This document shows, piece by piece, positions 36,445 to 58,343 of a stretch of DNA of 64,000 nucleotides. This stretch comes from Sphingosinicella humi (lineage in GTDB: Bacteria; Pseudomonadota; Alphaproteobacteria; Sphingomonadales; Sphingomonadaceae). The notes below the pieces were generated by a model. That model saw only the letters and a program-made list of their open reading frames with translations, ran no database searches and was not told the DNA's origin. Position 1 is the stretch's first letter, and the number at the start of each line of letters is the position of its first letter. A program made the position numbers and the translations under genes. The stretch spans positions 2,403,501-2,467,500 of the forward strand of contig NZ_QFFF01000001.1 in the NCBI RefSeq assembly GCF_003129465.1, read 5' to 3'.

Positions 36445-36452
36445 CTTAGCCG

Positions 36453-37250: not shown

Positions 37251-38650
37251 TATCCCTTCGGTTCACCAAGGCCGTCGAGGGGCTAAAAGGCTGCGCCGCG
37301 ATCGCAGACGATCTTCCGCGTCACGTGCCCCTATCCAGCCAAATGGCAGTGGTAGCACAGCGCGTGCTCAACATGTTTGAGCTACCCGCCAAACCTGGCG
37401 AGGAAGAACTTCTCAAGGCGTTTCGCACATTCATTTCGTGGTGCGAGAGAGGTGGCAAAGCTCCCTCCCAGGAGGACTGGCTGCTCGCACCGTGGGTAGC
37501 GCTCCAGGGCAGCCCCGCGTTGCTCGCCCGTTCGACTTTCTCAGATCAACTGGCCAAGCTTCTGGAGGTTGAGGCGCAGCCTCGCCTGCTCGCTGCTCTG
37601 ATATACAGCTATATTCGAGATTACGCTCCCGCCGCGAGCGCTGCAGCCTTGGCTGGTGAATTCATTGATCGTAACCTGCGCCGCCACAACAGCAGACTCG
37701 CCGTTCGGTGGCGGGAACGAACGTCTGGAGTGCGTCTCTTCGAAGCACAAGGTGCTCACGAGCGGCTCGCCAGCGCGGCGCTCGAGGCGCGCGGTGACGT
37801 CAAAGGCCTCATGCGGGATCTTGGCTTCACGACCGAGCTCGTAACGCGTTCTGGATTTCATGAGCCAACCGCTGAATACCTGGCCGGCAAGCTGGTGCGG
37901 GAACTGCAATCATCCGCTGAGTTCGACGGCGAGACAGTGGCCCAAGCATTGTCGTTTTTTCGCCTTGGTTCGGAGCTGGCCTTTCCAGGGCTCCGAGTTC
38001 AGCTTGCAGACACCCTCTTAGCTCCCTTCGCCCACAAGGAACTCAGGAACCTGGCAGCTCGGGCGATGCTGATGCAGTTCTTCGATGAGCTTTACGGCGA
38101 CCCGAGGAGTCACAAGAAACTATGGATCGGCGTCAGCCAGGACGCGAAGAAGACGATAACACGCTGGCTTTCACGCAAGGCGCTGGACCTATTCTTCGAC
38201 ATCCTCAGTGCGACGGCGGATCCGATCTGGAAGTGGCGCCGCGCATTCTGGTTAGCACTCGAGCGACACGGAGCCATTGATGAGGCATGGCCCGTTTTCG
38301 GCCGCGAGGCGCTTGATTACATCCGCCGGCACCCCGACAAGAAGAGCAAGATCGTCGCAAGCGGGCAGTTACAGGGCGCTGAGCGGCGGCAATCCGTGAT
38401 GCTAATGAAGATTGGCAAGTTCACGGTTGCCGAATGGAGCCACTCTGGATCTGCGAGAATCTGGGCAGAGGATGATTCCCGGGCACCACGCCTTGAGCGA
38501 CGGTTCTACTCCGCGAGCGATCTGCGTGAAGATTGCCTTTTCGATCAGCGTCATGATTCGACGCAGAGCTACCGTTGGCAGCGAGAGCTAATGGACTTCT
38601 TGGCCCCCCGAATTGGCATTCGTGTCAGTGTATCTGAGATGCGCCCGTGA
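37247..38650 (+). CDS. zorC: Zorya protein ZorC (EH-signature type)
   Basis: The 467-residue helical protein starts at a GTG overlapping the zorB stop. Order and length fit type I ZorC, which carries the EH-signature region; candidates here are AWPVFGREALDYIRRHPD and KIGKFTVAEWSHSGSARIW near the C-terminus. ZorC is reported to bind DNA and to connect the motor to the nuclease. Sequence alone would not identify it with certainty; identification rests largely on position between zorB and zorD. It ends in a GTGA overlap with zorD. Confidence 0.85.
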   Translation: MISLRFTKAVEGLKGCAAIADDLPRHVPLSSQMAVVAQRVLNMFELPAKPGEEELLKAFRTFISWCERGGKAPSQEDWLLAPWVALQGSPALLARSTFSDQLAKLLEVEAQPRLLAALIYSYIRDYAPAASAAALAGEFIDRNLRRHNSRLAVRWRERTSGVRLFEAQGAHERLASAALEARGDVKGLMRDLGFTTELVTRSGFHEPTAEYLAGKLVRELQSSAEFDGETVAQALSFFRLGSELAFPGLRVQLADTLLAPFAHKELRNLAARAMLMQFFDELYGDPRSHKKLWIGVSQDAKKTITRWLSRKALDLFFDILSATADPIWKWRRAFWLALERHGAIDEAWPVFGREALDYIRRHPDKKSKIVASGQLQGAERRQSVMLMKIGKFTVAEWSHSGSARIWAEDDSRAPRLERRFYSASDLREDCLFDQRHDSTQSYRWQRELMDFLAPRIGIRVSVSEMRP

Positions 38651-41806: not shown

Positions 41807-42514
41807 CTAGCCTATCGTCGGCAATGGCCCTTCGTTTAAGCGGTCTCGAGCGATGCGCCAGCCGGGCATGTGCAGATCAAGAAGTTGAACAAATGCCTCA
41901 CTGTGGTTTGGCACTCTGAAATGCGCGAGCTCGTGCAGAGCCACATAGTCCAGGCATTCGGTGGGAAACTTTGCAAGCTCGAGATTGAGCCGTACGGTGC
42001 GCCGCGTGGGGTTGCTGCTGCCCCACTTGGTTTTCATCCGTTGGATATAGAAACCTCTGATGTGGAGATCGAGGCGCTTGGCCCATTTGGCGAGCACCGC
42101 GTCAGCTCGGTCGCGCAGTTCGGCGCGATACCACTCCATCAGCGCCTCCTTGCGTGTCTCCAACGGTTCGCCCTTCGGCATGGTCAGCTCGAGCGAGCGA
42201 CGCCCTAGCGTAACGACGGGCTTACAACCGCCCTCCTTGATCGTAAGAAGGTATCTTCGGCCCCACACATAATGGCTTTCGCGCTCTAAATACTCACGCG
42301 GGGTTTCGCGGGCTTGGGCAGAGATTTTAGCCTGATGCCGTTTGATCCAACCAATTTTGGCGATTGCAAAGAGCCGGATGTTCTCAAGGGCCATTCGGCG
42401 CGGTGCGGAGATCCGCACCCGGCCTGTCGGAGGGTAAACGCTCAGATGAACGTTTTTTATGTCCTTAAAGACGACATCAATGGTGACACCGCCGATGTCG
42501 AGAACGGTGTCCAT
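41807..42514 (-). CDS. YgjP-like (DUF45) metallopeptidase
   Basis: The 235-residue protein carries the zinc-protease motif HELAHFRVPNHSEAF near the C-terminus, preceded by KWGSSNPTRRTVRLNLELAKFP, both typical of the YgjP/SprT-like DUF45 family. Such genes are frequent companions of type I restriction-modification operons, where the role is unproven. Its ATG shares a base with the stop of hsdR (TGATG), so it is the fourth gene of the hsd operon. Confidence 0.88.
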   Translation of the reverse strand: MDTVLDIGGVTIDVVFKDIKNVHLSVYPPTGRVRISAPRRMALENIRLFAIAKIGWIKRHQAKISAQARETPREYLERESHYVWGRRYLLTIKEGGCKPVVTLGRRSLELTMPKGEPLETRKEALMEWYRAELRDRADAVLAKWAKRLDLHIRGFYIQRMKTKWGSSNPTRRTVRLNLELAKFPTECLDYVALHELAHFRVPNHSEAFVQLLDLHMPGWRIARDRLNEGPLPTIG

Positions 42515-45500
42515 CAATATTCTCGCTGCGCTTCGATGATTGGAAAAATGCGTTCCACTTCATCCACATCTCCAAGGATGGCGAAGATCGCGGCCTTGAT
42601 AACTCGCTCTTTCGGTTCCACGCCGCGCCAGCCGTCTGGGCGGTTCGCCTTAACGGTCGCGTCGACTTCGAGCGCCAGATCCTCGTTCTCGCCAAGGTTG
42701 TTGAAGAGGGCCCGTTTGCCGGGCGTATCGAGCGCGGCCGGCGTGACGTCGCCCGTGCCCTGCATCATGTTCGTGACGAGGTCGCCGATCTGTTTCAGGT
42801 AGTCCTCGTATTCGAGCGCTTTGGCCTTCCGCGCTTTAATGATCTCGTCGAGCAGCGCGGAAATTTTCTCGAAATAAACTGGGTCGTTGAGATGTTCCTT
42901 GACGATCTTGGCACGGATATTGTTTTCGATAGTTTCCGCGATCGCTTCCCGGCTCTTCATGCCGCCGAGCTGGTCCGTGATCGCGTCGGCAATGCCGCTT
43001 TTCACCACCAGGTCGAGGAGGCTCACGTTGTCGAAGGGCGAGATTTTGCGCGGCGCGTCGGCTTCGATGTAGGTGTCGATCAGGTGCCGCATGTCCGCTT
43101 CATAGGCTTTGAGGTCGAGCACTTCGCCGCTGGCATGGCGGATGGTATCGCGGACGCCGACGGCGTTTTGGACCTTCTTCTTGATCGCTACGATCTCGGC
43201 GGCGCTGTATCCCGCTTCCTCCATTTCATCGGCGATACCGGCGAAGGCGCGGACCAGCGAGGCGACGGCCTTATAGAGCGCTGCGCGTTGCGGTTCACGC
43301 TCGGCAAGGTCGGTGACGATCTCGGTATTGCCGCAGAAATAATGGATGTGCTGTAACTCGCCCTTGGGCGGCTCGACGGGTTCGCAGACAAGGGCGACGA
43401 CTTCCAGGGCCTCATTCAGGCGCTCCCGGCCTTTCTCCAGCCGGTCTTTCATCAACACCTCAGGATCGGCTCCGCCCGCGCTGGTGTCGATTTCGGAGGA
43501 ATAGACGGCGATGGCCTTATTCACCTTCTTGAGAAGGCTCATATAATCCACGATGAAGCCGAAATCCTTGTCCTCGCCATCCAGACGGTTGGTGCGGCAA
43601 ATGGCCTGGAACAGGCCGTGATCCTGCATCGACTTATCAATGTAGAGATAGGTGCAACTCGGCGCGTCGAACCCCGTCAGCAGCTTGTCCACCACGATCA
43701 GCAGCTTCATGTTCGCGGGCTGCTTGATGAAGCGATCCTTTGCGTCCTCCTCATAGGATCCCGTCTTGGTCATGCCGGGCTTGGCTTCGACGTGTTTCAG
43801 AAGATCGGTATAGGTGTTGTAGATGAACTGCTTGTCGGTTTCGGAGTTGGCCCCGGTCTCCTCCTTGGTAACGTCCTGCGCGATGGGATTATAGGAAGTG
43901 ACGACCGCACAGCGGCCTTTCAGTTCGGTATTCTGGAAGGCTTCGTAATATTTGCACGCCTCATAGATGGATGACGCGACAAGGATGGCGTTACCGCGCT
44001 GGCTAGAAAGGCGCGGCTTCACGTTGAAGTCGAAAATGATGTCCTGCACCACGCGCTCCATGCGAGAGCGTGAGGAGAGCACGGTTTGCATCGTGCCCCA
44101 TTTCTTTTTCAGCTCGTCCTTCTGCCAGTGATTGAGCCCCTTCGTTTTGGCCTCGAACCACGCCTCGATCTTGTCCTCGGAGCCGAGTTTCTGGTCGATG
44201 TCGCGGGCCTCATAGATGAGATCCAGCACAACCTCATCCTCCACCGCCTCGCTGAATTTGTAGGTATGGATGTAGCTGCCAAACACCTCGAGGCTGGTCT
44301 GTTTGTCACGCTTCAAAAGTGGCGTGCCGGTGAAGCCGATGAACACGGCGTTGGGCATCATCGCCTTCATGGCCTTGTGAAGCTTGCCGCTTTGGGTGCG
44401 GTGGCACTCGTCCACGAATACGAAAATCTCGCCGACGGTCTTGGCGGGCTGGGCTTCGAGCTCCTTAATAAAGGCGTCGAAATCATCGCCACCCCGCTTG
44501 CCGAATTTGTGAACGAGTGAGCACAGGAGCCGGGGCTTGGCCTCTGCAAGCTTCGCCATAAGGTCGCGACCGCTGCTGGTCCGGTGGATGGCTTCGCCCG
44601 CATCGGAGAATACGCGCTTGATCTGCTTGTCGAGCTCGTCGCGGTCGGTGATGATGGCTACGCGGGCGTTGGGGTTGTTCTCAAGAATCCACTTGGCGAG
44701 CAGGACCATGACGATGCTCTTGCCCGAGCCCTGGGTGTGCCAGATGATGCCGCCGTTCCGTTGGCGCACATGCTGTTGCGCCGCCTTAATCCCGAAATAC
44801 TGGTGCACGCGGGGGAGCTTCTTCACCCCGCCGTCGAACAGCACGAAATCGTGCATTAACTCGATCAGGCGGCGCTTATCGCAGAGCTTGGCTAGATATT
44901 TGTCGAGCTTGAAACTGGCGTTGTCGGCCTCGTCCTCCTTCCATGGGAGGAACATTTTTTCAGGGGTGCCGATGGTGCCATATTTCACCCCTTCGGAATC
45001 GTTGCCGGCGAAAACGATCTGCACGGTGGAAAAGAACCAGGCATTGAACTCGGGACGCTGGTTGGAAAGAAGCTGGCGGATGCCGTCGCCAATGGTGACG
45101 CGGCTGTTCTTCAGCTCGATCACGCCGATGGCAATGCCGTTGACGTAGAGCACCAAATCCGGGCGCCGCGCGAAGCCGCCCTTCAGCGTCACTTCCTCGG
45201 CGATGGCGAAGTCGTTTTTCTCCGGCTCGGTCCAGTTGATGAGCTTCACATTGTCGGTTGGCTTGCCCGCTTCTACCTGCACATCGACGCCGTAGCGGAG
45301 CAGCCCATAGACGGCTTGATTGTTGTCGTAGAAGCTGCGCTGGGTGTTGTGGGCCTGGGTGCGGAGCTTGAAGAGTGCGGCGCTGATATGTGCGTCGCTA
45401 TATCCAGCGCCGCGCAGATAGTCGGCCAGCAATTTCTCTTCCACATTGCTGTTGCCGTAGCGGTCGGTCCAGTCGCCAAGATAGCGCCAGCCTAGCTCGT

Positions 45501-45564
45501 CGTCGAACAGCCCGATGATGCGCTTCTGTGTCGCCTTCTCCGGCTTGCCGACAAAATCGCTCAT
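42514..45564 (-). CDS. hsdR: type I restriction endonuclease subunit R
   Basis: The 1016-residue protein starts at ATG 45564 (GTGAGG ahead on the minus strand and ATGA overlap with hsdS); the longer frame is discounted. The N-terminal PD-(D/E)xK nuclease lies near 130-155 (RRPDLVLYVNG followed by IGVIELKN). The translocase motor follows: GIIWHTQGSGKSIVMVLLAKWI near 275, DECHRTQSGKLH near 385, FIGFTGTPLL, and the C-terminal lobe FDAPSCTYLYIDKSMQDHG and AICRTNRL. It cuts DNA lacking the host methylation pattern after ATP-driven translocation. Full length. Confidence 0.94.
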   Translation of the reverse strand: MSDFVGKPEKATQKRIIGLFDDELGWRYLGDWTDRYGNSNVEEKLLADYLRGAGYSDAHISAALFKLRTQAHNTQRSFYDNNQAVYGLLRYGVDVQVEAGKPTDNVKLINWTEPEKNDFAIAEEVTLKGGFARRPDLVLYVNGIAIGVIELKNSRVTIGDGIRQLLSNQRPEFNAWFFSTVQIVFAGNDSEGVKYGTIGTPEKMFLPWKEDEADNASFKLDKYLAKLCDKRRLIELMHDFVLFDGGVKKLPRVHQYFGIKAAQQHVRQRNGGIIWHTQGSGKSIVMVLLAKWILENNPNARVAIITDRDELDKQIKRVFSDAGEAIHRTSSGRDLMAKLAEAKPRLLCSLVHKFGKRGGDDFDAFIKELEAQPAKTVGEIFVFVDECHRTQSGKLHKAMKAMMPNAVFIGFTGTPLLKRDKQTSLEVFGSYIHTYKFSEAVEDEVVLDLIYEARDIDQKLGSEDKIEAWFEAKTKGLNHWQKDELKKKWGTMQTVLSSRSRMERVVQDIIFDFNVKPRLSSQRGNAILVASSIYEACKYYEAFQNTELKGRCAVVTSYNPIAQDVTKEETGANSETDKQFIYNTYTDLLKHVEAKPGMTKTGSYEEDAKDRFIKQPANMKLLIVVDKLLTGFDAPSCTYLYIDKSMQDHGLFQAICRTNRLDGEDKDFGFIVDYMSLLKKVNKAIAVYSSEIDTSAGGADPEVLMKDRLEKGRERLNEALEVVALVCEPVEPPKGELQHIHYFCGNTEIVTDLAEREPQRAALYKAVASLVRAFAGIADEMEEAGYSAAEIVAIKKKVQNAVGVRDTIRHASGEVLDLKAYEADMRHLIDTYIEADAPRKISPFDNVSLLDLVVKSGIADAITDQLGGMKSREAIAETIENNIRAKIVKEHLNDPVYFEKISALLDEIIKARKAKALEYEDYLKQIGDLVTNMMQGTGDVTPAALDTPGKRALFNNLGENEDLALEVDATVKANRPDGWRGVEPKERVIKAAIFAILGDVDEVERIFPIIEAQREY

Positions 45565-46820
45565 ACTAGCCTCACCCTCCCCGTGAGCAGTTCCCGCATC
45601 ATGCCCTGCTTGATCTGGCGGGCTTTGGCGAGGCGGCCTTCCAAGGCGATCAACTCCTCGCTCATATCGTTGAGCACGTCGCGGATTGCTTCCTGCTCTT
45701 TCCGTTCGGGAACTGGGACAACAAGATCGCACAAGGCGGTCTTGGATACGGCATACACCTTCATACCAGTCATGACGCGAAGATACTGTTCGCGCAGTTG
45801 CTTGGCGTTTCCAAGGTATCCCTTGAAGCCAGGTGCAAAGGTTGGCTTCTTCTCACGTAGCAGGAACGTGTGGAGACCGGAGATGGCAACATCGCCGGTC
45901 TTAAGGCCCGTCACTTCCACACTCTTGGCTACACCATCGAAATCTTCAGATGCGTCCGCCATGATCCAGTCACCATTTTTCAGAGTAGCGGCATTAGGAC
46001 ACCGATGGCGCTCGATCCGTGGCGGCGACATGCGGCTGAAATCGAGGATTTCGTGAAAGCGCGTGTGGATGTCGCCATAATGGACGTAAGCAGCGTCGCC
46101 TTCATCGGACAAATCATCGCGGGCGTTGGTCGCTGTCGGCAGGAAGGCAAAGACTTCTGCGAATGTTGCTTCCTCCCACTTGCAACTGAACCCCGGCAAT
46201 CGCCGCCGCCCGGAAAGAAGCTCCTGCATCGCGCCCTGCTTGATGGCGCGCTTCTTGGCGAGGAGGCTTTCCAGCCCCTCTATCAGCGCATCTGCATCCG
46301 ACAGCGCGGCGGCGATGGCTTGTTGCTCCTTAATCGAGCTTGGAACAACAACAGGGCAATTTTGAAACACTGGGTTCAAAAGGTGTGTCTGGCTGACGCC
46401 ATCATCGAAGCGTAGAAAGTAGCGATTGCGATTCAACGCGTAGGCAAGATATTTCGAATCGTCGCGGTATGGGGTCAAAGAGCAGACACGTTGATTGACC
46501 GCATACAGATCATCAACATCGGAGACATAGGTTTTTGCTAGAGCCTTCCCATTGGGAAGGTCGCTCATCACCATAAGAATGTCGCCACGCTTAGCTGGGC
46601 AAAAATTCTTCGTAGCGAACTTGCGCACTGCGCCATCAGTGGAGATGAATTTTGAGTTCACACAAACATATTTCCCATGCTCGGAAACGAATTGCTCGTG
46701 CGCTTTTCCGCCCCTGAATCGGCAAACCTCCGGCAATAGTTTGATTGACCAATCTGTTGGGATGGAACCGACTTCAGATTGTTTAAAGTCGGTGTTCGTT
46801 TTGCCTTTCGCTAAGGCCAT
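45561..46820 (-). CDS. hsdS: type I restriction-modification specificity subunit S
   Basis: The 419-residue protein has two target-recognition halves, each followed by a conserved helical spacer: PSSIKEQQAIAAALSDADALIEGLESLLAKKRAIKQGAMQELLSG-type helix at about 170-215 and the matching EQEAIRDVLNDMSEELIALE to KQGMMRELLTGRVRLV at the C-terminus. This repeat is the hallmark of HsdS. The ATG at 46820 overlaps the hsdM stop; an ATG two codons upstream is possible. It decides which bipartite sequence is methylated or restricted. Confidence 0.93.
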   Translation of the reverse strand: MALAKGKTNTDFKQSEVGSIPTDWSIKLLPEVCRFRGGKAHEQFVSEHGKYVCVNSKFISTDGAVRKFATKNFCPAKRGDILMVMSDLPNGKALAKTYVSDVDDLYAVNQRVCSLTPYRDDSKYLAYALNRNRYFLRFDDGVSQTHLLNPVFQNCPVVVPSSIKEQQAIAAALSDADALIEGLESLLAKKRAIKQGAMQELLSGRRRLPGFSCKWEEATFAEVFAFLPTATNARDDLSDEGDAAYVHYGDIHTRFHEILDFSRMSPPRIERHRCPNAATLKNGDWIMADASEDFDGVAKSVEVTGLKTGDVAISGLHTFLLREKKPTFAPGFKGYLGNAKQLREQYLRVMTGMKVYAVSKTALCDLVVPVPERKEQEAIRDVLNDMSEELIALEGRLAKARQIKQGMMRELLTGRVRLV

Positions 46821-49324
46821 CACCATGCGAACCCCATCGCTTTCAGATGCCCCTCGACCTTGGTTTCAAGGTCGGCGACAAGCGCGGCAAGATTAGGCAT
46901 CGGAGTGTCATACCGTTCCGCCAGCGTGCGGACACGCTGGGTCAATGCTTGGCTGATGCGGTCCATTTCGCCGTGAATGTCCGCGTCGATGCGGGCCATC
47001 CACTTGTCATCGACCACAAGGGCCTTGATCTCGGCCTCGGTCAGCTTGGGGTATTTGGCATAGGCGGCGGCATCCAGCTTCGCCTCTGCCTTCTTGACCG
47101 CATCCGCCAAATCATCGCGCTCATCGAGCAGCTTCAGCATATCGTCGATCGCGAAGATTTCCTGAAAGTCCGGGATCGCCTCAAGGAACTCGGCCTTGAT
47201 TGCCTCACCCGCGCCGCCCTGTTTTAACAACGTGTCGTATCGCTTGAAAAAGCCAGCATCCAACTCGCCCGCCAGCGCTTTCCGACGGGCTTTGAGCAGG
47301 GCCGCTGTCACCTTGCCCTTCTCGGTGCGGCACTCGGCGAGCAAACCTTCTTCGCCGCTGTGTTCCTCGTCCAGCTCAGCAATCGCAGCGTTGGCGGCTT
47401 CGAGCTTGACATTCAGTTCGTCGATCTCGGCTTGGTCCCTGGCGAAGTAACGGGCAATAATATAGCGCTTGGGGATAATGTCGCAGGTCCAGCCCTTGTC
47501 CCTCTCCTTGCCCTTTTTATCCTTCTCGATGATGCGGTAAGGCACGGCCTTCCAACCGTCGAGGGCGATGACATAGCAATCGTCCTGCATTGTTTCGGCC
47601 CAATAATCCATAAGATGCTGATAGACGTCGTATTTGTCGATCAGCGGCTTGCCCGCGTAATGGGCAAGCAGCCCCTCGGAGAGCTTGCCGATCACCTCTT
47701 TAGGATGGATGCCTGGCTTCAAGGCTTTCAGTGCTTCGGCATTCTTCGTCCGCCAGCTGTCGAAATGCGCGGTCATCTGTGCGGTGAAGTCGGCAAATTC
47801 CCTGTGCTCGAAAATCGCCGATCTGATCGCGGATTTGTCGACCGCGAGATCGACATAGCCGGGCCGTGCCTCGGTGAAGAGCGCGGATTTCAGATTGGGA
47901 CAAACTTCCCAGTAGGCGTTCAGTGCGTCGATGTCGGCCTGCGGGATGCCGCCGCGCAAATGGGCATCAATGTCCTGCCAGTCTTCCGCCTTCTGGCTGT
48001 CGATGTAGCGTGGCAGGTTAAGATTGTAGTCGTTCTTCTCGATCTCAGTGTAACACACTGAGCGGGCGTAGCCCGGTACATCGAGCGACTTGGTGAAGGC
48101 GTCTACGATTTTGTGGATGTCCTGCGCACGGAGGCGGTTCTTGGGGCCGTCCTTCATGAAGCCTTGGGACGCGTCGATCATGAAAATGCCCTTGCGGGCC
48201 TGCGCGTCCTTTTTGTCCACGACGACTATGCAGGCGGGGATGCCAGTGCCGTAAAAAAGGTTTGCGGGCAGGCCGATGATGCCCTTGATATAGCCTTTGC
48301 GAACAAGGGCGCGGCGAATGGCAGCCTCGGCATTGCCACGGAACAGGACGCCGTGCGGAAGGACGCATGCACCAGAACCGGTGCTCTTAAGTGATCGGAT
48401 GATGTGGAGTAGATAGGCATAGTCGCCCTGTTTGTTGGGCGGGATGCCGAAGCCCTTAAAACGGTCGTGGGGGTCATGGTGCGGGTCCAGCCCCGTGCTC
48501 CACCGCTTATCGCTAAACGGTGGGTTGGCGACGACGAAATCGAACTGTTTTATCGCGTAGCCGTCCCTAAATTTTGGATCAGTCAGCGTGTTGCCGGGCG
48601 CGATCTGCGCGGTCGGGTTGTCGTGCAGGATCATGTTCATGCGGGCGAGGCCGCTGGTAGCCGAGTCCTTCTCCTGCCCGTAGAGCGAAACCTTGGTACC
48701 GGCTTCGTCTCCGACTTTCAGCAGCAGGGAGCCGGAGCCGCACGTGGGGTCGTAAACCGTGGTGTCGGAACTGGTCTTGGCCTGACCGATGCCGATGATC
48801 TGTGCCATGACGCGGCTGACCTCGGCGGGCGTGTAGAATTGACCTTTGCTCTTGCCGCTCTCCGTGGCGAAGTGACGCATGAGATACTCATAGGCATCGC
48901 CCAGAATGTCATCTCCCTCGGCGCGGTTCCTCGAGAAATCGAGCGCCGGGTTCTCGAAGATGGCAATGAGATTGGTGAGTTTTTCCACCTTCTCCTTGCC
49001 GTCGCCCAACTTGGCGGCATCATTGAAATCAGGGAAGTCGGCTTGGTTTAGTTGGTTGTTGGCGGCAGCGAGCGGGGCGATGATCTTCTTGTTGATCTGA
49101 TCGCCAATGTCGGTCGCTCCCTTGAGCGCGACCATCGCTTTAAAATCGGCGCCCGCCGGAATCTTGATTGGGGCGAAGGGAACGCCTGCATATTTGTCGC
49201 TGACGTATTTGATGAAAAGAAGCGAAAGCACGTAATCTTTATATTGGCTTGCATCCATACCCCCTCGAAGCTCGTCACAGCTTGACCATAGTGAACTGTA
49301 CAGCTCGGACTTCTTAATCGCCAT
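46820..49324 (-). CDS. hsdM: type I restriction-modification DNA methyltransferase subunit M
   Basis: The 834-residue protein begins with the HsdM N-terminal helical domain (KKSELYSSLWSSCDELRGG). The AdoMet motif DPTCGSGSLL lies at 192-201 and the adenine-N6 catalytic motif NPPF at 267-270. After residue 480 there is a C-terminal extension of about 350 residues containing a coiled coil (AEIDELNVKLEAANAAIAEL), which makes it far longer than classic 500-residue HsdM; such long forms exist. ATG 49324 opens the conserved MAIKKSEL start; the frame is open 47 codons further upstream but without that conservation. First gene of the hsd operon. Confidence 0.92.
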   Translation of the reverse strand: MAIKKSELYSSLWSSCDELRGGMDASQYKDYVLSLLFIKYVSDKYAGVPFAPIKIPAGADFKAMVALKGATDIGDQINKKIIAPLAAANNQLNQADFPDFNDAAKLGDGKEKVEKLTNLIAIFENPALDFSRNRAEGDDILGDAYEYLMRHFATESGKSKGQFYTPAEVSRVMAQIIGIGQAKTSSDTTVYDPTCGSGSLLLKVGDEAGTKVSLYGQEKDSATSGLARMNMILHDNPTAQIAPGNTLTDPKFRDGYAIKQFDFVVANPPFSDKRWSTGLDPHHDPHDRFKGFGIPPNKQGDYAYLLHIIRSLKSTGSGACVLPHGVLFRGNAEAAIRRALVRKGYIKGIIGLPANLFYGTGIPACIVVVDKKDAQARKGIFMIDASQGFMKDGPKNRLRAQDIHKIVDAFTKSLDVPGYARSVCYTEIEKNDYNLNLPRYIDSQKAEDWQDIDAHLRGGIPQADIDALNAYWEVCPNLKSALFTEARPGYVDLAVDKSAIRSAIFEHREFADFTAQMTAHFDSWRTKNAEALKALKPGIHPKEVIGKLSEGLLAHYAGKPLIDKYDVYQHLMDYWAETMQDDCYVIALDGWKAVPYRIIEKDKKGKERDKGWTCDIIPKRYIIARYFARDQAEIDELNVKLEAANAAIAELDEEHSGEEGLLAECRTEKGKVTAALLKARRKALAGELDAGFFKRYDTLLKQGGAGEAIKAEFLEAIPDFQEIFAIDDMLKLLDERDDLADAVKKAEAKLDAAAYAKYPKLTEAEIKALVVDDKWMARIDADIHGEMDRISQALTQRVRTLAERYDTPMPNLAALVADLETKVEGHLKAMGFAW

Positions 49325-49532
49325 GTATCTCTCTTCGTACGAAATTACTCGTGCTCGCGGCAGAACGTCTAAGGCGGACGGACCATGGCACGATTGAGTG
49401 GGTGCCCCCCTGGAGGCATGTCCATGCCACCCAATTTCGATAGACAAGCAGTCTATCAACGACAACTTGCTGCATCATGATCTGCGCGCGAGCGCGTTGC
49501 TGCTGCGGGTGAGGAGCAGCCAGTTCGCAGAC

Positions 49533-50021: not shown

Positions 50022-53000
50022 ATGCGTGTCCACAACGATTCACTGCTGCATTCCGCATCAGACCTGAACGCCTTTCTAGGCTGCGCCCATGCGGCTGCTT
50101 TGAACCTTCGAAAGCTGATCGAGCCCGATAGTCTTCCCGATCCTGCAGAAGATGATGAGAGCGCCGTTCTCATTCAGCAGGCGGGACACGCCCATGAGGG
50201 TGCTTACCTGGCCAGCCTTCGAGAGAAGGGCGGAGTGATCGAGATCTCTAGCAGAGGCACGCTTGAAAAGCGCGCAGCGGAGACTCTGGACGCCATGCGG
50301 GTTGGGGCGCCGATCATCTACCAGGCCACATTCCTCGATGCACCGTGGCATGGCTTCGCTGACTTCCTGCGGCGCGTAGAGCGGCCGTCCGAGCTTGGCG
50401 GTTGGTCATATGAGGTCATCGACACCAAGCTCGCGCGCACCGCCAGTCCCAAGCATGTCCTGCAACTCGCTCTGTACTCCGAAATGATCGCCAAGGTGCA
50501 GGGAGTGCGCCCCCACGGCATGCACCTTGTGCTGGGGGATTGCCGAGAGGAGGAATTCCGCACGACGGAGTTTCGTCACACGCTTGATGCTTCGACGCAT
50601 CGCTATCTGACATTTATTGAGGGCGGCGCCCAAGGGTCCGTAGGCGAGCCCTGCTCTTCCTGTAGCTTGTGTGGCTGGCGCGAAGTATGCGCAGCAGAAT
50701 GGGAAGCGATTGATCATCTTTCGCGTGTCGCTGGCATGCAGAAATCGCAAATTGCTAAACTGCGGGATGCTGGTGTTTCGACCGTGGCAGCGTTGGCCGC
50801 GCTGCCCGTCGGAACGCGTGTGCCGAAGCTCGCGCCGTCCACATTTGAGCGCCTGCGGGCACAAGCAGTTCTCCAGGTCGCACGGCTGACAGGCGAACCG
50901 GTGGTCGAGCACCTGCCCTTAGAGGAAGGGCGAGGTTTCGCGAGATTACCCGCCCCCGATCCTGCCGATCTTTTTTTCGACCTTGAGGGGGATCCACTCT
51001 ATCCCGACGGCCTCGAGTATCTCTGGGGCGTTCATTACCGCGACGCAGCCGGCGAGCCTGTTTTTCGCTATGAGTGGGGCCATGATCGCGCCAGCGAACG
51101 CGCCGCGTTTGAGGCAATGGTTGACTGGTTCACCGAGCACGTGGCGGCGAACCCCCATGCACATATCTATCATTATGCCGCCTATGAAGTGACGGTCCTC
51201 CGCCGCCTCTCGACAGCGTTTGCAAGCAGAGAGGCCGAGGTGGATAGCCTCCTTCGCGCGGAGAAGTTCGTGGACCTCTACTCCGTGGCGCGTGCAGCCA
51301 TTCGAACGTCAGAGCCAAATCTCAGCCTCAAGACGCTCGAGATCTTTTTCGCAGAAAAGCGCGCGGAGGACGTGACAAAGGCCGATCAGTCGATCGTCCA
51401 CTATCATCGCTGGCGCGAGACGGGCGAGCAGGCGCTCCTCGATGGCATTCTCGCCTACAACCGCGTGGATTGTGAGAACACGGAGGGCTTGCGAGACTGG
51501 CTCCTGACGCTGCGTCCTGAGCTTCCGTGGTGGACCAAACAGGGCCCAGCTCCCGATCCTGAGAAAACAGCAGAGGCGATTGCACGCGAAGCCAGGCTAG
51601 CGGCGCTCAGAGAGTCGGTGCGCGCAAACGCAACCTGCCTATCCGAGCGCGGCCGTGAACTCGTTGCGCATCTGATCGACTTTCACAGCCGTGCGAAGAA
51701 GCCGGAACAGTGGGCGGTCTTCGACCGCTGCGGCCGCGACGACGATGAACTTATAGACGATGGCGAGTGTATCGGCGCTATCGAGCCCGTCTCCGGCACC
51801 TGGCTTCGTCAAGAAAAGCGATCCACGGTCGCTCGCTACCGCTTTCCCCATCAGGACACGAAGCTGCGTGAAGGGTCGACAGTGGTCCACGCACCGACAT
51901 TGATGCCCATGGGAACGATCGTGGCGCTCGACCGGGCAAATGGCTTCGTCGAGGTGAAGCGTGTGCTCAAAGGGGAGGATACTTTCCCTCAGAGCGGCTC
52001 GTTGATCCCCGGCTGGCCGCTCGATACTTCCGTCCTCGAGGAAGCGGTGGAGCGGGTGGCCGGTACACTCGCGGCCGGCGACGGAAACCGATATCGCGCC
52101 ATAATCGACCTCATTGAGCGGGCTCCACCTCGCTTGGCTGGGTGGGACGGCGGAGAGCTGGTCCGGCCGGACGAGACGCTGATCGAAGCCACCACTGGGC
52201 GCGCGATGACGCTCGATCGGTCGACACTCTTCATTCAGGGGCCTCCCGGGACGGGCAAAACGCATACAAGCGCGCATGTCATTTGCGCGCTGATCGCGGC
52301 GGGAAAGCGCGTCGGCGTTTCTTCCAACAGCCACAAGGCGATCAATAATCTTCTCGCCAAAGTGGAAGCCGTCGCGAAGGAGCTGGGGCTCGATTTCAGC
52401 GGCATGAAGAAGGTGACGCGAGGCGACCCGGATACGCTTCTTAACGGCGGGCTGATCGAAGACGTTACCGATGCAAAGGACATCGAGGATGCGATGCCAG
52501 ACCTGATCGGTGGCACCGCATGGCTGTTTGCCCGGGAGAAGATGGATCAGGCCCTCGATTATCTCTTTGTCGACGAGGCAGGTCAGGTGTCTTTGGGTCA
52601 CCTGATGGCGATGGGGGCTGCTGCGAAGAACATCATTTTGGTTGGAGATCAGATGCAGCTGGGGCAGCCGATCCAGGGGGCTCATCCCGGCGAGAGCGGC
52701 CAATCGGTGTTGGACTATTTGCTGCAAGGAGCCGCAACGATCGCTCCCGACAAGGGCATTCTCCTCGACACCAGCTGGCGGATGCACTCGTCGATCTGCG
52801 GTTTCATCTCCGAAGCGGTCTATGACGGCCGGCTAAGAGCTCATCCTGACAACGAAGCTCAGCAATTGCTGCTGGACGAGACTGCTCACGATCAGCTGTC
52901 GCCGAACGGCATTCGAATGGTCGAGATGCATCATAGCGGTTGCAGCCAGCGCAGCGATGAAGAGGTGGAGGTGGCGGCCGAGCTCGTCGAAAGTCTGTGT

Positions 53001-53396
53001 GGCCAACGATATGTCAACCGACGTGGCCATGAAGCGACGATCGGTCTCGAGAATATTCTCGTTGTGGCACCCTACAATCTGCAGGTGAATGCCTTGAAGG
53101 AACGGCTGCCGGCTGGTGCGCGCGTCGGGACCGTTGACAAGTTCCAGGGCCAGGAGGCCGAGGTCGTGATCGTTTCCCTCGCGACATCGACACCAGGCGA
53201 TCTGCCTCGCCACGTCGACTTCTTCTACTCGAAGAATCGGCTCAACGTCGCGATAAGCCGTGCGCGCACCCTCGCGGTTGTGCTGGCAAACCCTAAGCTT
53301 CTGGAACTCGACGCAAAGACCGTCGAACATCTGCGATTGGTAAATACGCTTGCATGGTTGAGATCGGCAGCAACGGGAGATGCTCATGCCGGATGA
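50022..53396 (+). CDS. Cas4/RecB-like nuclease + DEDD exonuclease + SF1 helicase fusion
   Basis: The protein has 1124 residues in three parts. Residues 1-230 are a TM0106-type RecB/Cas4-like nuclease with Cys21 and the cluster CSSCSLCGWREVC, enough for an iron-sulphur site, and a nuclease core around YEVIDTKLAR. Residues 310-490 are a DEDD/RNase H-like exonuclease (FFDLEGDPLYPDG, then YNRVDCENTEGLRDWL). From about 730 there is an Upf1/Dna2-like SF1 helicase (QGPPGTGKTHTSAHV, LFVDEAGQVS, DKFQGQEAEVVIVS, NRLNVAISRART). The ATG follows AAAGGGGGGA. Dna2-like end processing of foreign or broken DNA is likely. It overlaps the DUF4268 gene and heads the operon that includes the McrB- and McrC-like genes. 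Confidence 0.85.
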   Translation: MRVHNDSLLHSASDLNAFLGCAHAAALNLRKLIEPDSLPDPAEDDESAVLIQQAGHAHEGAYLASLREKGGVIEISSRGTLEKRAAETLDAMRVGAPIIYQATFLDAPWHGFADFLRRVERPSELGGWSYEVIDTKLARTASPKHVLQLALYSEMIAKVQGVRPHGMHLVLGDCREEEFRTTEFRHTLDASTHRYLTFIEGGAQGSVGEPCSSCSLCGWREVCAAEWEAIDHLSRVAGMQKSQIAKLRDAGVSTVAALAALPVGTRVPKLAPSTFERLRAQAVLQVARLTGEPVVEHLPLEEGRGFARLPAPDPADLFFDLEGDPLYPDGLEYLWGVHYRDAAGEPVFRYEWGHDRASERAAFEAMVDWFTEHVAANPHAHIYHYAAYEVTVLRRLSTAFASREAEVDSLLRAEKFVDLYSVARAAIRTSEPNLSLKTLEIFFAEKRAEDVTKADQSIVHYHRWRETGEQALLDGILAYNRVDCENTEGLRDWLLTLRPELPWWTKQGPAPDPEKTAEAIAREARLAALRESVRANATCLSERGRELVAHLIDFHSRAKKPEQWAVFDRCGRDDDELIDDGECIGAIEPVSGTWLRQEKRSTVARYRFPHQDTKLREGSTVVHAPTLMPMGTIVALDRANGFVEVKRVLKGEDTFPQSGSLIPGWPLDTSVLEEAVERVAGTLAAGDGNRYRAIIDLIERAPPRLAGWDGGELVRPDETLIEATTGRAMTLDRSTLFIQGPPGTGKTHTSAHVICALIAAGKRVGVSSNSHKAINNLLAKVEAVAKELGLDFSGMKKVTRGDPDTLLNGGLIEDVTDAKDIEDAMPDLIGGTAWLFAREKMDQALDYLFVDEAGQVSLGHLMAMGAAAKNIILVGDQMQLGQPIQGAHPGESGQSVLDYLLQGAATIAPDKGILLDTSWRMHSSICGFISEAVYDGRLRAHPDNEAQQLLLDETAHDQLSPNGIRMVEMHHSGCSQRSDEEVEVAAELVESLCGQRYVNRRGHEATIGLENILVVAPYNLQVNALKERLPAGARVGTVDKFQGQEAEVVIVSLATSTPGDLPRHVDFFYSKNRLNVAISRARTLAVVLANPKLLELDAKTVEHLRLVNTLAWLRSAATGDAHAG

Positions 53397-53802
53397 AGTT
53401 CTTGCCCAATATCTAGCCATCTTCACCGAGCGCGCGAAGGAAGCCGGATTAGACATGAGGGCGCCCGGCCAAAACTGGGCTCCGATGAGGGATATCGTGC
53501 CGGGCTCGCATATCAGTTTGAGCGTCCGCCGGGATGCCATTCAGGTCAATCTGAACAACGAGCGGGATGAAGATCGAGCCAGGTTTGAAGCTCTTTACCG
53601 GGATCGTTCAACCATTCAGGCTGCCATCGGGGAAAGCCTGGCCTGGGAGAAGAAGGATGGACGCAAGAAGACTGCGATCAGAGCCACGCTGAGCCGGGGG
53701 TTTGAGGACCGAGGGGATTGGGACGAGCAGCATAGGTGGGCCATCAAAATGATGCGGGCATTCGAGCGAGAGTTCGGCCCTCGTCTCCGGTCATCAGCCT
53801 GA
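53386..53802 (+). CDS. DUF4268 family protein
   Basis: The 138-residue protein resembles DUF4268: SHISLSVRRDAIQVNLNN, FEALYRDRSTIQAAIGESLAWEKKDG and WDEQHRWAIKMMRAFEREFGPRL, matching the family order of beta core, helix and a final Trp-containing helix. DUF4268 often occurs on or next to nucleases and in restriction loci. The ATG at 53386 lies 6 bases behind GGGAG and inside the end of the preceding helicase gene, so the two are co-translated. The ATG at 53380 sits directly against the ribosome site and is less likely. Confidence 0.7.
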   Translation: MPDEVLAQYLAIFTERAKEAGLDMRAPGQNWAPMRDIVPGSHISLSVRRDAIQVNLNNERDEDRARFEALYRDRSTIQAAIGESLAWEKKDGRKKTAIRATLSRGFEDRGDWDEQHRWAIKMMRAFEREFGPRLRSSA

Positions 53803-53844: not shown

Positions 53845-56800
53845 TTGAAGGAAGAGGAATTTCGCGCGTGGATGCAGGCGCAGGGACAGGCGCCGAATAC
53901 GGTGTCGACACGTATTGCCGACACTCGTCGCGTGGAGAGACACTATGGCGACGTCGATGCGGCCTTCGAAGCCGACGGCTTTGCGTCCATCCTGGCGGAC
54001 CTCGCCTATACCGCTGAGGATAACGCGGCGGGTAAGCCGAACACCTCCCGCATCGAAATAGACGGAGACCCGTACAAGAGCTTGGCCTCATATCGGTCAG
54101 CGCTTTCGATTTACCGCCAATTTCGCGAGAGCGAGGGAGCCCAGACGCAGGCAGATGAAATCCGCCAATTCGTGATGCGTGAGTATGCTGAGCTGGCTCG
54201 CAGGGCAGGGCAACCTCGTTTTTCGGTGAGGGCAGGAGACGTTCATGGCCAGATGGGCCTCTCGAACGCGATGCCAGCCGTGTGTAGCGCGATTGGAAGC
54301 GGTAAATTCCAAAACTTGGCTGGTGTTCGACAGGTCGGTCGTGAAGGGCCAGCGATTAGCTCCACGGTGACGTTCACCTTCGAATTCCAGTCACGCGGCG
54401 CCTTCGATGTGTCGGTGGCCGAAGCGGTCCTTCGCGGTCGCTATGGGGCGCCAGAAGTCGACAATCAGAAAATGATCTCGTTCATCTTGAGCGACAGCAG
54501 AGCTATCGCGCTGCAGCGCGATATTCAGCTGGTCCAGCTCTGGCTGGAGGACGACGGCAATGCCGCGCCTCCACCGGCTCAGCAGGTGCAGTCCTATGCG
54601 GCAGACCAGGGACGCCACTCAAACCTGCCAGGGCGCCTGAGCCATGACCCGCCAGCCGAGCTCAGGAGCCAAGGCTTTCCCAAGCCGGTCCTCAGCGTAA
54701 GAGCGGGCAGCGAACCCGAGTTGAACAACATACTTGATTGGTATGAGGCCGGTTCAGACGGGCTGAACCGAGCCGCTCTTGAGCGACTCAAGCAAAACTT
54801 CCTTGCCCAATATCCTGATTTCGAGCCGGAGGCGTTTAGAGCGACATCAGGCGGCTATTGGGACGAGGAACGTAGCTACAAAGAGGATCTCCTGGCGCGA
54901 GCTCGAGCGGCCCTGCAGGAAGATCCGCCACTCTCTGATGAGCAGTTGGGCGGTCGACTACTTGACGCTCTCACCGGTGACGGCAGCAAGCTCTGGGGCT
55001 GGCGCACGAACGCTCATTTTCAGAGTGTTAGGGAGCAGCACCCGGGAGCTTTGGAAGCTGCCGCCGGCCGGCTAGCCCGGAGCGAAGACGAGCTACCCGT
55101 CGCTATCTCTCGGTTCGTTGAAGAGATCTGGCCGATCATTTCCGACGAAACCAACCGCCCATACAGCGACAGTCGCTGCCTGCCGACGATGATTGCCGGC
55201 CTCGTCTGGCCCGACCGCGCCTATGGCATCAACACCAGTCCCGTGAACCGAACCGCTCAGTACCTGACCGGCGAGCGGATGTATGGCTACCAGCCGCTGT
55301 CAACAGAGGAATACCGTGCCACCTTGGAACTGATGACTGCCATCCGCAATGTGATGGACAAGGAATGGGGTTGGGCGCCGCGCGATTTCTGGGACGTGCA
55401 GGGCTTCGTCTGGGCGGTGAACCGCTCCGATATTGCTGGTCAGAGTGACAACGACGAACAAACTGGGGGAGCGCAGCCTGTGAGCAACGGCGCCACAAAT
55501 CTCATTCTCTATGGTCCACCCGGAACGGGGAAAACCTACAGAACAACGACCGAGGCGGTCCGTCTGTGCGACGGCTCTGCCCCGGGGAGCTGGGAAGAGG
55601 CTAAAGCTCGCTATGAAGAGCTCGTCGAGGCGGGACAAATCCGTTTCGTGACCTTTCACCAGTCGTACTCATATGAGGATTTCGTCGAGGGATTGCGCCC
55701 CGTAACAGGTGAGGGGGCTAGCGGCTCTGAGGCTGACACCCAGGGCGCGGGCACTGGTTTCCGGCTGGAGCCCAAAAGAGGCATTTTCCGCGAAATATCC
55801 GCCTTGGCCGAAGAGGCTCGTAAGAATGCGGGTCGCTCGGGAGGATTCGATCTAACGGGACGGCAGATCTTCAAAATGTCGCTCGGTCGGTCTGGGTCCG
55901 AGGATCACATCTTTGAGGCCGCCATCGAGGGCAATTACGTCGCCCTGGGATACGGCGGAGATGTCGATTGGTCCGACCCGCGCTACGACGATTACCAAGC
56001 AATCTTCGACAGGTGGAATGAGATTGAGCCTGGCACGCACGGCGGCAGCGGCAACATCTCACAGGTGTGGCGGTTCCGTTGTTCGATGTGCGAGGGCGAC
56101 ATCGTCGTAGTCTCAGAGGGGAACTCAAGATTCAGAGCCATTGGTGAGATCGTCGGCCCCTACCGCTTCGATGCTACCGGAGAGCGCGATTACAACCATT
56201 TGCGAGCTGTGCGCTGGCTGCTCGTTCCCGATGAGTCCCTCCCGGTGGAGACGATCTACAGCAAGAACTTCACTATGCAGTCCTGCTACCTGCTGAAGGA
56301 CAACCTGGTGAAGAAGGAGGCCCTCGCGCGGCTGCTGCCAGGCGGCGAGGACGTGCGTCCTGCTCGACCTGATCAGTTCGTGCTGATCATCGACGAGATC
56401 AACCGTGCGAACATTTCTAAGGTCTTCGGCGAGCTCATCACGCTGCTCGAGCCAGATAAACGGATCGGAGCTCGGAACCCGATCAGGCTGAAGCTGCCCT
56501 ATTCCGGGGATATGTTCGCCGTCCCCAATAATCTCCACATCATTGGCACGATGAACACGGCCGACCGCTCGATCGCGCTGCTCGACACCGCATTAAGGCG
56601 TCGGTTCTCATTCAAGGAGCTGATGCCCGACCCGGAAGTGCTGAAAGATGCCAGCGATGTGACCGGGATCGACCTCGTAGCGCTGCTGCGCACGCTCAAT
56701 CAGCGGATCGAGTTTCTATTCGATCGTGAGCATCAGATTGGCCACGCCTATTTCATGCATTGTCGCACTGCTGGAGACGTTGATGACGTCATGCGCGACA

Positions 56801-57009
56801 AGGTCATTCCGCTCCTTCAGGAGTATTTTTACGAGGATTGGAACAAGGTCGCCCTTGTCCTCGGCGATGCGGACGGATCGGAAAATTTCCTGAGGCGCGA
56901 CACGTTGAAATCTCCAAACGGGCTCACTGCCGATGCCTTCACGGAAGATTGGTATAGATGGTCTGTGAAGCATGAGTTCGGCCCGAGCGCCTATGCTCAG
57001 TTCGGATGA
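53845..57009 (+). CDS. mcrB: McrB-like AAA+ ATPase with an inserted EVE/PUA-like domain
   Basis: This 1054-residue protein probably starts at TTG 53845 behind AGGGGG. The N-terminal domain (1-95) has the RVERHYGDVDAAFEADG pattern; a second small module around MGLSNAMPAV lies near 135. Region 290-540 ends in RDFWDVQGFVWAV. The AAA+ module starts with Walker A GPPGTGKT at 557-564 and VTFHQSYSYEDFVEG. Normally Walker B follows soon after; here about 160 residues intervene (672-830) and include VWRFRCSMCEGDIVVVSEG and FRAIGEIVGPYRF, which resemble an EVE/PUA-type modified-base-binding fold. Walker B IIDEINRAN is at 848-856 and the sensor/Arg-finger part MNTADRSIALLDTALRRRF starts at 903. Overlaps mcrC (ATGA). 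Confidence 0.85.
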   Translation: MKEEEFRAWMQAQGQAPNTVSTRIADTRRVERHYGDVDAAFEADGFASILADLAYTAEDNAAGKPNTSRIEIDGDPYKSLASYRSALSIYRQFRESEGAQTQADEIRQFVMREYAELARRAGQPRFSVRAGDVHGQMGLSNAMPAVCSAIGSGKFQNLAGVRQVGREGPAISSTVTFTFEFQSRGAFDVSVAEAVLRGRYGAPEVDNQKMISFILSDSRAIALQRDIQLVQLWLEDDGNAAPPPAQQVQSYAADQGRHSNLPGRLSHDPPAELRSQGFPKPVLSVRAGSEPELNNILDWYEAGSDGLNRAALERLKQNFLAQYPDFEPEAFRATSGGYWDEERSYKEDLLARARAALQEDPPLSDEQLGGRLLDALTGDGSKLWGWRTNAHFQSVREQHPGALEAAAGRLARSEDELPVAISRFVEEIWPIISDETNRPYSDSRCLPTMIAGLVWPDRAYGINTSPVNRTAQYLTGERMYGYQPLSTEEYRATLELMTAIRNVMDKEWGWAPRDFWDVQGFVWAVNRSDIAGQSDNDEQTGGAQPVSNGATNLILYGPPGTGKTYRTTTEAVRLCDGSAPGSWEEAKARYEELVEAGQIRFVTFHQSYSYEDFVEGLRPVTGEGASGSEADTQGAGTGFRLEPKRGIFREISALAEEARKNAGRSGGFDLTGRQIFKMSLGRSGSEDHIFEAAIEGNYVALGYGGDVDWSDPRYDDYQAIFDRWNEIEPGTHGGSGNISQVWRFRCSMCEGDIVVVSEGNSRFRAIGEIVGPYRFDATGERDYNHLRAVRWLLVPDESLPVETIYSKNFTMQSCYLLKDNLVKKEALARLLPGGEDVRPARPDQFVLIIDEINRANISKVFGELITLLEPDKRIGARNPIRLKLPYSGDMFAVPNNLHIIGTMNTADRSIALLDTALRRRFSFKELMPDPEVLKDASDVTGIDLVALLRTLNQRIEFLFDREHQIGHAYFMHCRTAGDVDDVMRDKVIPLLQEYFYEDWNKVALVLGDADGSENFLRRDTLKSPNGLTADAFTEDWYRWSVKHEFGPSAYAQFG

Positions 57010-58343
57010 TCCAGCGCACCATTCTTGAGTGGCAAACCCTACAATATTCCGACGATCTACAAGATCAGCGGACCATTCCTGCATGGGCTGCAGACAGGCT
57101 GGCCGCCGTCGCGAAATCCTCTTCGCTTGGCGGCGAGGGCGGCGCCCGCATTCTCCAGCATGGGCGCCATTCTCTCAGGGCCGCTCAGGTCGTCGGCGTT
57201 ATCGCCGCTCAAGATTGCGCGCTCGAGATCCTGCCGAAAATCGATGGACTCGAGGAGGACGCGTCCAGAGTTCGTAAGAACCTTGTCCACATGCTTGCGG
57301 TCGCGTTGGACCTCGAGATTGCTACCGGGCGGGTGACGGAACTTGGCTGGCAGAAGGACAATCTGCTCGAGATCCTGATCCGCCTGTTCTCCGAGAAGCT
57401 GTTCGCACAAGTGCACCGAGGGCTCCCTAGGCGGTATATTCCGCTTGAGGACGATCTTCCGGCGCTTCGAGGAAGACTGGACGCCATTCGACAGTTCACG
57501 ACACTAGCGGCCACGCCTCAACGGCTCGCCTGTCGTTATGATGATCTGTCGCCGGACGTTCCGCTCAACCAGATCATGAAAGCCGCTGTGAGGCGGCTGT
57601 TGCAGCTTTCCCAAGCTCCTGAAAATCAGCGGCGTCTCCGCGAGCTAAGTTTTGCTTTTGCGGACGTGGCGAGCGTCCCTGTGCCCTCTCTCAGGTGGGA
57701 CAAGGTCGTCCTTGACCGAACCAACGCGCGTTGGCGGGAGCTGCTAAACCTCGCCAAGCTGCTGCTAGGCGATCGATTTCAAACGACGACGACCGGCGGC
57801 GGGAGGGGCTTCTCGCTCCTCTTCGAGATGAATACGCTTTTTGAGGAGTATGTCGGCCGACTGCTACGCCGCGCCTTGGCCTCAAGCGGATACAGCGTGC
57901 ATCTTCAGGGCGGCCGTCTGCATTGTCTAACTGAGCTTGATCTCGATACCCTTCAGCCCGGCGCGAACCGCTTCATGACGAAGCCCGACATCATCATAAA
58001 ACGCGGTTCTTCCCCGGTGATGATCATCGACACGAAGTGGAAGAGATTGGCGCCGCGCATTGATGATCCAAAGCAAGGCGTCTCGCAGGCAGACGTCTAC
58101 CAGATGATGGCCTACGGTCGGCTCTACCAATGTCCATCACTGATGCTGCTCTATCCTCACCATCGCGGCCTGGGCGACCATGAGGGGCTGATCAGCAGGC
58201 ATCGCGTTACCGCTTGTGATGACGTGCTGCTTTCCGCCAGCATTGGGCTGGAGGACCTGTCGTGCGTGCCCAGGTCATTATCGCACCTTGTGCTGCATGA
58301 GATCGAGGCTCGCGCGAGCATCCAGGACGATGTCCTATGCTGA
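57006..58343 (+). CDS. mcrC: McrC-like nuclease subunit of McrBC
   Basis: The 445-residue protein starts with the McrC N-terminal region: VVGVIAAQDCALEILPKIDG, then LVHMLAVALDLEI. A central helical part is followed by a PD-(D/E)xK nuclease at the C-terminus, TKPDIIIKRGSSPVMIIDTKWKRL, with the Asp and Asp-x-Lys residues, and QADVYQMMAYGRLY. It binds the McrB ring and cuts DNA carrying modified bases. The ATG overlaps the mcrB stop. Complete. Confidence 0.9.
   Translation: MIQRTILEWQTLQYSDDLQDQRTIPAWAADRLAAVAKSSSLGGEGGARILQHGRHSLRAAQVVGVIAAQDCALEILPKIDGLEEDASRVRKNLVHMLAVALDLEIATGRVTELGWQKDNLLEILIRLFSEKLFAQVHRGLPRRYIPLEDDLPALRGRLDAIRQFTTLAATPQRLACRYDDLSPDVPLNQIMKAAVRRLLQLSQAPENQRRLRELSFAFADVASVPVPSLRWDKVVLDRTNARWRELLNLAKLLLGDRFQTTTTGGGRGFSLLFEMNTLFEEYVGRLLRRALASSGYSVHLQGGRLHCLTELDLDTLQPGANRFMTKPDIIIKRGSSPVMIIDTKWKRLAPRIDDPKQGVSQADVYQMMAYGRLYQCPSLMLLYPHHRGLGDHEGLISRHRVTACDDVLLSASIGLEDLSCVPRSLSHLVLHEIEARASIQDDVLC

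Follow-up and report, generated by a model that had tools for sequence, protein, structure and literature searches.

What lies between the Walker A and Walker B motifs of the McrB-type AAA+ protein of Sphingosinicella humi, and what could a domain at this position contribute to the motor that surrounds it? The gene (P0001; positions 53845-57009 of the 64,000-nucleotide stretch of contig NZ_QFFF01000001.1 analysed here, hereafter the window) is an intact frame of 1054 codons on the + strand, as are its parts described below, with a TTG start codon and an AGGGGG stretch ahead of it. Walker A (GPPGTGKT, residues 557-564; 55513-55536) and Walker B with the residues following it (IIDEINR, residues 848-854; 56386-56406) are 291 residues apart when counted from start to start, compared with 76 in Escherichia coli K-12 McrB, whose reader is an N-terminal DUF3578 domain (PMC11090510). 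The initial annotation had put about 285 residues between the two motifs, and had proposed an EVE/PUA-like domain inserted in the motor. The motifs are where it placed them, and its observation of a domain nested within the McrB AAA+ module is confirmed.

The insertion keeps the motor motifs complete because the catalytic motifs are constant in all 69 insert-bearing motors: Walker A GxPGTGKT (the second residue varies), the DE-NR of Walker B, TMNT-D and RRRF. The window protein has the McrB signature TMNTAD (NxxD; residues 902-907, 56548-56565), and its ALRRRF starts at residue 916; Walker A, Walker B, NxxD and the conserved arginines in the AAA_5 core, which together mark a protein as McrB, are all present. 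Family matches comprise AAA_5 (E 2.6e-12), McrB of Thermococcus gammatolerans (TgMcrB; 6.9e-59) and the McrB model PRK11331 (4.2e-33, which is below the curated cut-off of that model). The McrC partner by which McrB proteins are further recognised is encoded at 57006-58343 (+ strand), with a 4-base overlap with the end of the mcrB frame. It matches PF10117 (E 2.9e-73), and its residues KPD at 326 and DTK at 342 were taken by eye as PD-DxK. Of 95 insert-bearing loci, 92 have more than 600 nucleotides of room, and an McrC-like frame lies 3' of McrB in every one of these. Positions 53845-57009 encode a complete McrB-type AAA+ motor, and a PD-DxK McrC comes next. The pair has the AAA+ Walker A/B motifs, the NxxD signature and a PD-(D/E)xK McrC in common with E. 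coli K-12 McrBC, and from homology to McrBC it probably represents a type IV-like restriction system with restriction activity and a hexameric motor.

In the AlphaFold2 model of motor plus insert (residues 541-1054, 69 sequences; predicted local distance difference test score (pLDDT) 91.3, predicted TM-score (pTM) 0.88), the insert (residues 661-844; 55825-56376) departs after helix alpha2 (residues 647-660; 55783-55824), the last motor element ahead of it, and rejoins the motor just ahead of the Walker B strand (residues 845-850). When modelled alone from 58 aligned inserts it forms one compact domain (pLDDT 90.5, pTM 0.84). The folded part spans residues 675-830 (55867-56334), which agrees with the segment 672-830 singled out in the initial annotation; from AlphaFold2 and Foldseek, that segment is predicted to be neither an ordinary AAA+ hairpin extension nor a non-PUA fold. 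Foldseek matched the insert to 39 chains of the PDB with E ≤ 0.001, and rows 1-39 have a probability of 1.00. YTH domains fill rows 1-12 (best E 1.6e-5), and row 13 is 1zce (E 2.4e-4). Among the best 50 rows, 47 are YTH by title; the remaining three are 1zce, 1wmm and 2hd9, which we take to be EVE-type structures. With the model of motor plus insert as query, chains of TgMcrB are the best matches (5.6e-27), and YTH domains are still matched (6.2e-5). Two viral structures were matched with E ≤ 0.001, the better one being a 336-residue myovirus protein (1.4e-7), and a search of a phage collection gave two weak matches.

Relatives of the domain also occur outside the motor position. Profile comparison connects the insert with a domain found at the N-terminus of four Mrr-type nucleases (99.4%, E 1.1e-21) and with a domain N-terminal to AAA+ in two insert-less McrBs (L015 and L029; 98.9%, E 2.8e-17), using alignments that exclude the window sequence and, on the comparison side, hold only 4 and 2 sequences, respectively. 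With insert and motor flank as query, L022, L023, L026 and L027 were seen to combine an insert-like N-terminal domain with a nuclease-like C-terminal part, which Pfam names Mrr_cat in L022 and L023, the two Mrr-type proteins scanned. L015 has an additional K-12-type MrcB_N domain at its N-terminus. Likewise, the PADLOC candidate model PDC-S02 matches residues 680-820 of the window McrB (E 3.7e-12; profile positions 5-147 of 346). In the relatives read, PDC-S02 proteins possess an N-terminal EVE-like domain homologous to the insert and an Mrr-like nuclease, with no AAA+ motor and no nesting of the domain; the window McrB does not have this whole-protein architecture of an EVE-like domain plus a C-terminal nuclease. 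Caution is therefore needed in annotation, as the PDC-S02 model matches inside an McrB motor. At nine positions of the domain, 80% or more of the 58 inserts have an aromatic residue (e.g., 676, 703, 709, 773 and 791), and R787, V789 and W791 are nearly constant, a pattern that suits a base-binding fold.

Several results weigh against this assignment. The YTH rows among the best 50 have TM-scores by query of only 0.29-0.45 with root mean square deviations of 7.0-11.0 Å, and the highest value by target is 0.61 (1wmm, deviation 4.3). The Pfam family EVE (PF01878) was found with E ≤ 0.1 in only 2 of the 58 inserts (best 0.032) and had no match in the window insert, while unrelated Pfam families scored no worse (Lipocalin_4 in two inserts, best 0.012; Lcl_C in one, 0.0049). 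When PDB sequences were searched with the insert profile, McrBs came up only through their Walker B flank, together with a single weak match to an unrelated chain, and searches of Pfam, NCBIfam and PDB sequences assigned no name to the window insert. The predicted structure nevertheless has the mixed alpha/beta barrel resembling YTH or EVE structures that is typical of this branch of PUA-like folds, if with modest TM-scores. It is thus supported that the insert is a PUA-superfamily YTH/EVE-like module nested in the AAA+ module, with YTH as the closer solved fold. The initial annotation's interpretation is partly supported: the EVE/PUA-like character that it proposed is borne out by structure prediction, fold search and profiles, with YTH as the nearer fold, and the coupling of base recognition to turnover that it also suggested stays a conjecture.

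Comparison with known systems shows where this architecture departs from precedent. McrBC of E. coli and T. gammatolerans form a hexameric ring in which McrC, reaching through the pore, stimulates one active site, and hydrolysis of guanosine triphosphate (GTP) powers translocation; the elements that contact guanine vary from one McrB to another and are not part of the core (PMC7680126). TgMcrB (YTH-McrB; 6UT5, 6P0F), the best structural match of the window motor, also uses a YTH-type recognition module, which binds DNA containing N6-methyladenine (6mA; PMC12707154). Its YTH domain, however, precedes the AAA+ domain, whereas the window module is inserted into that domain, just ahead of the Walker B strand. 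EVE-McrB, which Bell et al. (2020, PMC7641849) describe as the most frequent EVE architecture in defence, is likewise a fusion of a reader of the same superfamily to McrB, but the portion of that paper considered here describes no EVE within the AAA+ domain. In PcdA of Staphylococcus aureus, an McrB-type AAA+ protein, the N-terminus bears two EVE domains (PMC10602043, PMC12458937). Closest to our case is the statement that McrB GTPase domains often have insertions, "likely encoding specificity domains", which were removed for tree building (Bell et al. 2024, PMC11090510); the portion of that study considered here does not identify them, place them or show their exchange. Beyond this sentence, searches of the open-licence literature, supplements aside, turned up no description of a YTH/EVE domain inside the McrB AAA+ module. 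Insertions in McrB GTPase domains are thus already in print, and what is added here is the fold, site, prevalence and exchange.

The nested-reader architecture is widespread, common rather than unique. A similarity scan of genome contigs found that at least 559 of at least 594 stretches encode relatives, the best 80 of which were used. A hidden Markov model (HMM) of the insert detected the nested domain in all 75 readable McrBs among them (Walker A and Walker B in one frame), a figure which, as these relatives were picked by similarity, speaks for breadth and not for prevalence. Their record titles name Alpha- and Gammaproteobacteria, Bacillota, Bacteroidota, Planctomycetota, Chlorobi and desulfo-type bacteria, and include metagenome-assembled genomes titled Thermoanaerobaculia and Bryobacterales. 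IMG/VR contributed 57 loci with 51 usable frames, 20 of which have the nested domain. Overall, a domain of the same family occupies the same site in 113 of 166 McrB frames examined, which argues that the insert is not there by chance; this ratio is not a prevalence, most of the frames having been retrieved by similarity to an insert-bearing query. Frames with an unreadable Walker A (L056, L102, L109, L115, L158, L165 and L171) were dropped, as were L157, L159, L172 and L101, whose two Walker motifs belong to different AAA modules or had been misassigned. L157, L159 and L172 have by eye two AAA modules per chain, the first with divergent motifs.

Plasmids also carry the gene. A 718-residue relative with the insert is encoded on a Klebsiella plasmid, and further relatives are found on Sphingobium and Caulobacter plasmids. 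The whole Klebsiella gene pair was matched in 10 of 5426 complete E. coli genomes (95-99% DNA identity; 7 on plasmids, 3 on the chromosome), and Enterobacter plasmids, known from the match range alone, show the same range as the Klebsiella pair. NCBI names one of the E. coli copies 'DUF8426 domain-containing protein' and the other copies 'AAA family ATPase'. The E. coli relatives L035 and L036, one on a plasmid and one on a chromosome, have identical near neighbours and lie amid IS26, ISKpn38, IS110-type and IS21-type elements.

A less biased estimate came from 398 Pseudomonadota genomes searched with the McrC family PF10117, 38 of which matched, the window's own included. After the window's own row had been dropped and two split pairs merged, the 41 rows gave 38 places (one below the Pfam cut-off); two of these (L231, L242) had no McrB frame, leaving 36 upstream McrB frames in a sample limited to McrC caught by PF10117. 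Fifteen of the 36 have the nested YTH/EVE-like domain, and all 15 would be overlooked in a survey confined to McrB N-termini. Another insert at the same site is present in 4 of 36 (118-129 residues from the GxF motif to Walker B, versus about 20 in insert-less proteins), an insert between alpha1 and beta2 in 3, and none in 14. Among the McrBs examined, L146 and L148 have 61 and 46 residues from GxF to Walker B and were scored as 'none'. The initial annotation had allowed that the segment might be standard in E. coli-type McrB. This is not the case, as K-12 McrB has no insert and neither do the five sampled systems above the cut-off of the K-12-type McrC model NF007277 (L234, L236-L239). That model, run on the same 398 genomes and hence not independent, added one place, the fragment G348.

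The distribution of the module over motors points to exchange. In a FastTree phylogeny of 132 motors, built without the insert columns and thinned at 90% identity (L155 and L161 were left out, having no anchor), the nested-domain label needs at least 14 changes, and the starred branches force 8. The insert tree separates a main type from a divergent subtype B (support 93). A single motor clade for the 10 subtype-B motors was rejected against 38 others by the approximately unbiased test (p 3.2e-5) on a tree of 60 hand-chosen rows that holds the pair L106/L131 on a long branch; subtypes were taken from the insert tree, when a first motor tree was already known. Individual pairs agree with this picture. 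The motors of L127 and L170 are 80% identical, and L170 has no insert; those of L116 and L205, also 80% identical, hold different modules, so that both pairs represent natural experiments. Motors and readers are 77% and 28% identical in L112/L133 and 82% and 35% in L054/L071, as against 71% and 75% in L054/L060. The L054 pattern is as expected from transfer of a reader between motors; recombination within the motor itself is an alternative source of it. The insert varies more than the motor does: 68 relatives have a median identity of 36% to the insert of the window McrB, versus 56% to its motor. From these sequence comparisons, the insertion site seems to act as a socket, in that motors 70-80% identical hold a YTH/EVE-like module, another module or none.

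Other inserts of about 100 residues occupy the alpha2/Walker B site in L205, L206, L212, L216 and L136 and form the second element of L207. One of the 15 sampled proteins with the nested domain, L207 has this element after it, and by eye it resembles the insert of L143. In L224, Walker B follows the GIFK motif at a distance of 356 residues, made up of the nested domain and, after it, roughly 150 more. The label 'other insert' applies to 8 rows of the motor tree and needs 8 changes there; since it is no more clustered than shuffled labels, these inserts need not be one family. A second insertion site, between the Walker A helix and beta2, is used in L210, L223, L240, L135, L145, L147 and L156, with 138-159 residues from Walker A to FHQ versus about 30-60. 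As read, the frames of L240 and L156 leave hardly any N-terminal region. A Pfam scan of the L205, L216 and L136 inserts, the second element of L207 and the alpha1-beta2 insert of L210 gave nothing better than E 0.07.

Taken as a whole, the data are best explained by an McrBC system with a nested YTH/EVE-like reader on its ring, exchangeable at a socket, to which we give a probability of about 0.78. In this model, a YTH/EVE-like module would have been spliced between alpha2 and the Walker B strand of the ring motor, and would most likely bind a modified base in foreign DNA, base binding and the DNA target both being suggested by analogy. Six copies would be located on the ring itself and not on an N-terminal tether. 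Binding by the module may position or license the ring on DNA, GTP hydrolysis with the McrC finger would then drive translocation, and the PD-DxK nuclease of McrC would cut the DNA, while evolution would swap modules on one motor via the insertion site. By the same analogy, base binding by the nested domain would make modified DNA the substrate that the system restricts. The characterised McrBs of E. coli and T. gammatolerans have an N-terminal base reader, and how recognition starts the motor has been left open. With a reader within the motor core, and with two cases that offer no room for an N-terminal one, this question becomes directly testable.

A strong competitor, although we rate it somewhat below an even chance, is a reader with two keys, in which the N-terminal region is the primary recogniser, the nested module a second sensor, and both are needed before the ring fires. 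The N-terminal region of the window McrB (residues 1-540; 53845-55464) indeed tells against the nested domain as the only reader: Pfam finds no match in residues 1-552, and because 540 N-terminal residues are without a match, the nested domain may act beside another recogniser and may not be the sole or main recognition element of this protein. Moreover, 95 of 113 insert-bearing McrBs have more than 200 residues ending 12 before Walker A (upper bounds from stop-to-stop frames), and single linkage sorts the 111 with at least 60 such residues into 20 sequence groups of up to 76 members. On the other hand, no more than 19 and 39 codons precede Walker A in L105 and L207, respectively, which leaves no room for an N-terminal reader, and by eye none of their upstream frames of at least 80 residues resembles a detached one; L085 (84) is cut by a contig end. 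The insert HMM, whose search covers this fold and no other, finds no second N-terminal YTH/EVE-like domain in the 113. Upstream of McrB in L105 (Aureivirga marina), at about 4724-5191, are short-period tandem repeats that read LHLHKTG in one frame.

Extending the nested-reader model, one may imagine that the alpha2-Walker B junction is a general, exchangeable specificity socket and that a modified base, once bound, exerts direct control over GTP turnover in the subunit concerned, the module being a built-in switch and not a tethered hook. Direct coupling of recognition to turnover would be plausible because both ends of the module are anchored beside the strand with the catalytic Asp-Glu; we regard the two propositions in combination as less likely than not.

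It is improbable that the insert has a structural role or binds a partner, in ring assembly or McrC contact, having kept the PUA fold but lost base reading. Its faster divergence relative to the motor and its absence from close relatives could be read in this way, but rapid variation fits a specificity module equally well. The mostly aromatic positions and the nearly constant R787, V789 and W791 speak against such a loss, as do the homologous domains that serve as N-terminal modules of nucleases and McrBs and the independence of reader subtype from the motor tree. Still less credit is due to modified RNA as the target, a role proposed for the CoCoNuT relatives of McrBC. The nearest solved folds are readers of N6-methyladenosine (m6A) in RNA, and YTHDF-type domains dominate the fold matches. 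CoCoNuTs are, however, NxD-type McrBC systems, and TMNTAD of the window motor is NxxD; in their Type I-A members, a helical insert separates Walker B from NxD (PMC11090510). Furthermore, McrC retains PD-DxK, its Pfam and NCBIfam matches being McrC and a weak nuclease match only, and the YTH domain of TgMcrB binds modified DNA. As far as prediction goes, we can set aside the idea that the insert is merely an extended helix-2 hairpin of the AAA+ fold or stems from an error in assembly or frame, since model strands 615-619 and 641-645, taken as that hairpin, precede the insert, which recurs across many species and on complete plasmids.

Several other genes around mcrBC are of note. Immediately upstream, a DUF4268 protein of 140 residues (53380-53802, + strand) adjoins mcrB and matches only the C-terminal part of the PDC-S11 models. 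It is preceded by a 1124-residue protein (50022-53396, + strand) with a weak Cas4/PDDEXK-like N-terminal match, RNase_H_2 and the helicase domains AAA_11/AAA_12. PADLOC identified R, S and M genes of a Type I restriction-modification system at 42514-49465, on the - strand and thus opposite to mcrBC, and a Type I Zorya system with ZorA, ZorB, ZorC and ZorD in this order at 34498-41565 (+ strand). Together with mcrBC, these two systems make up a defence island.

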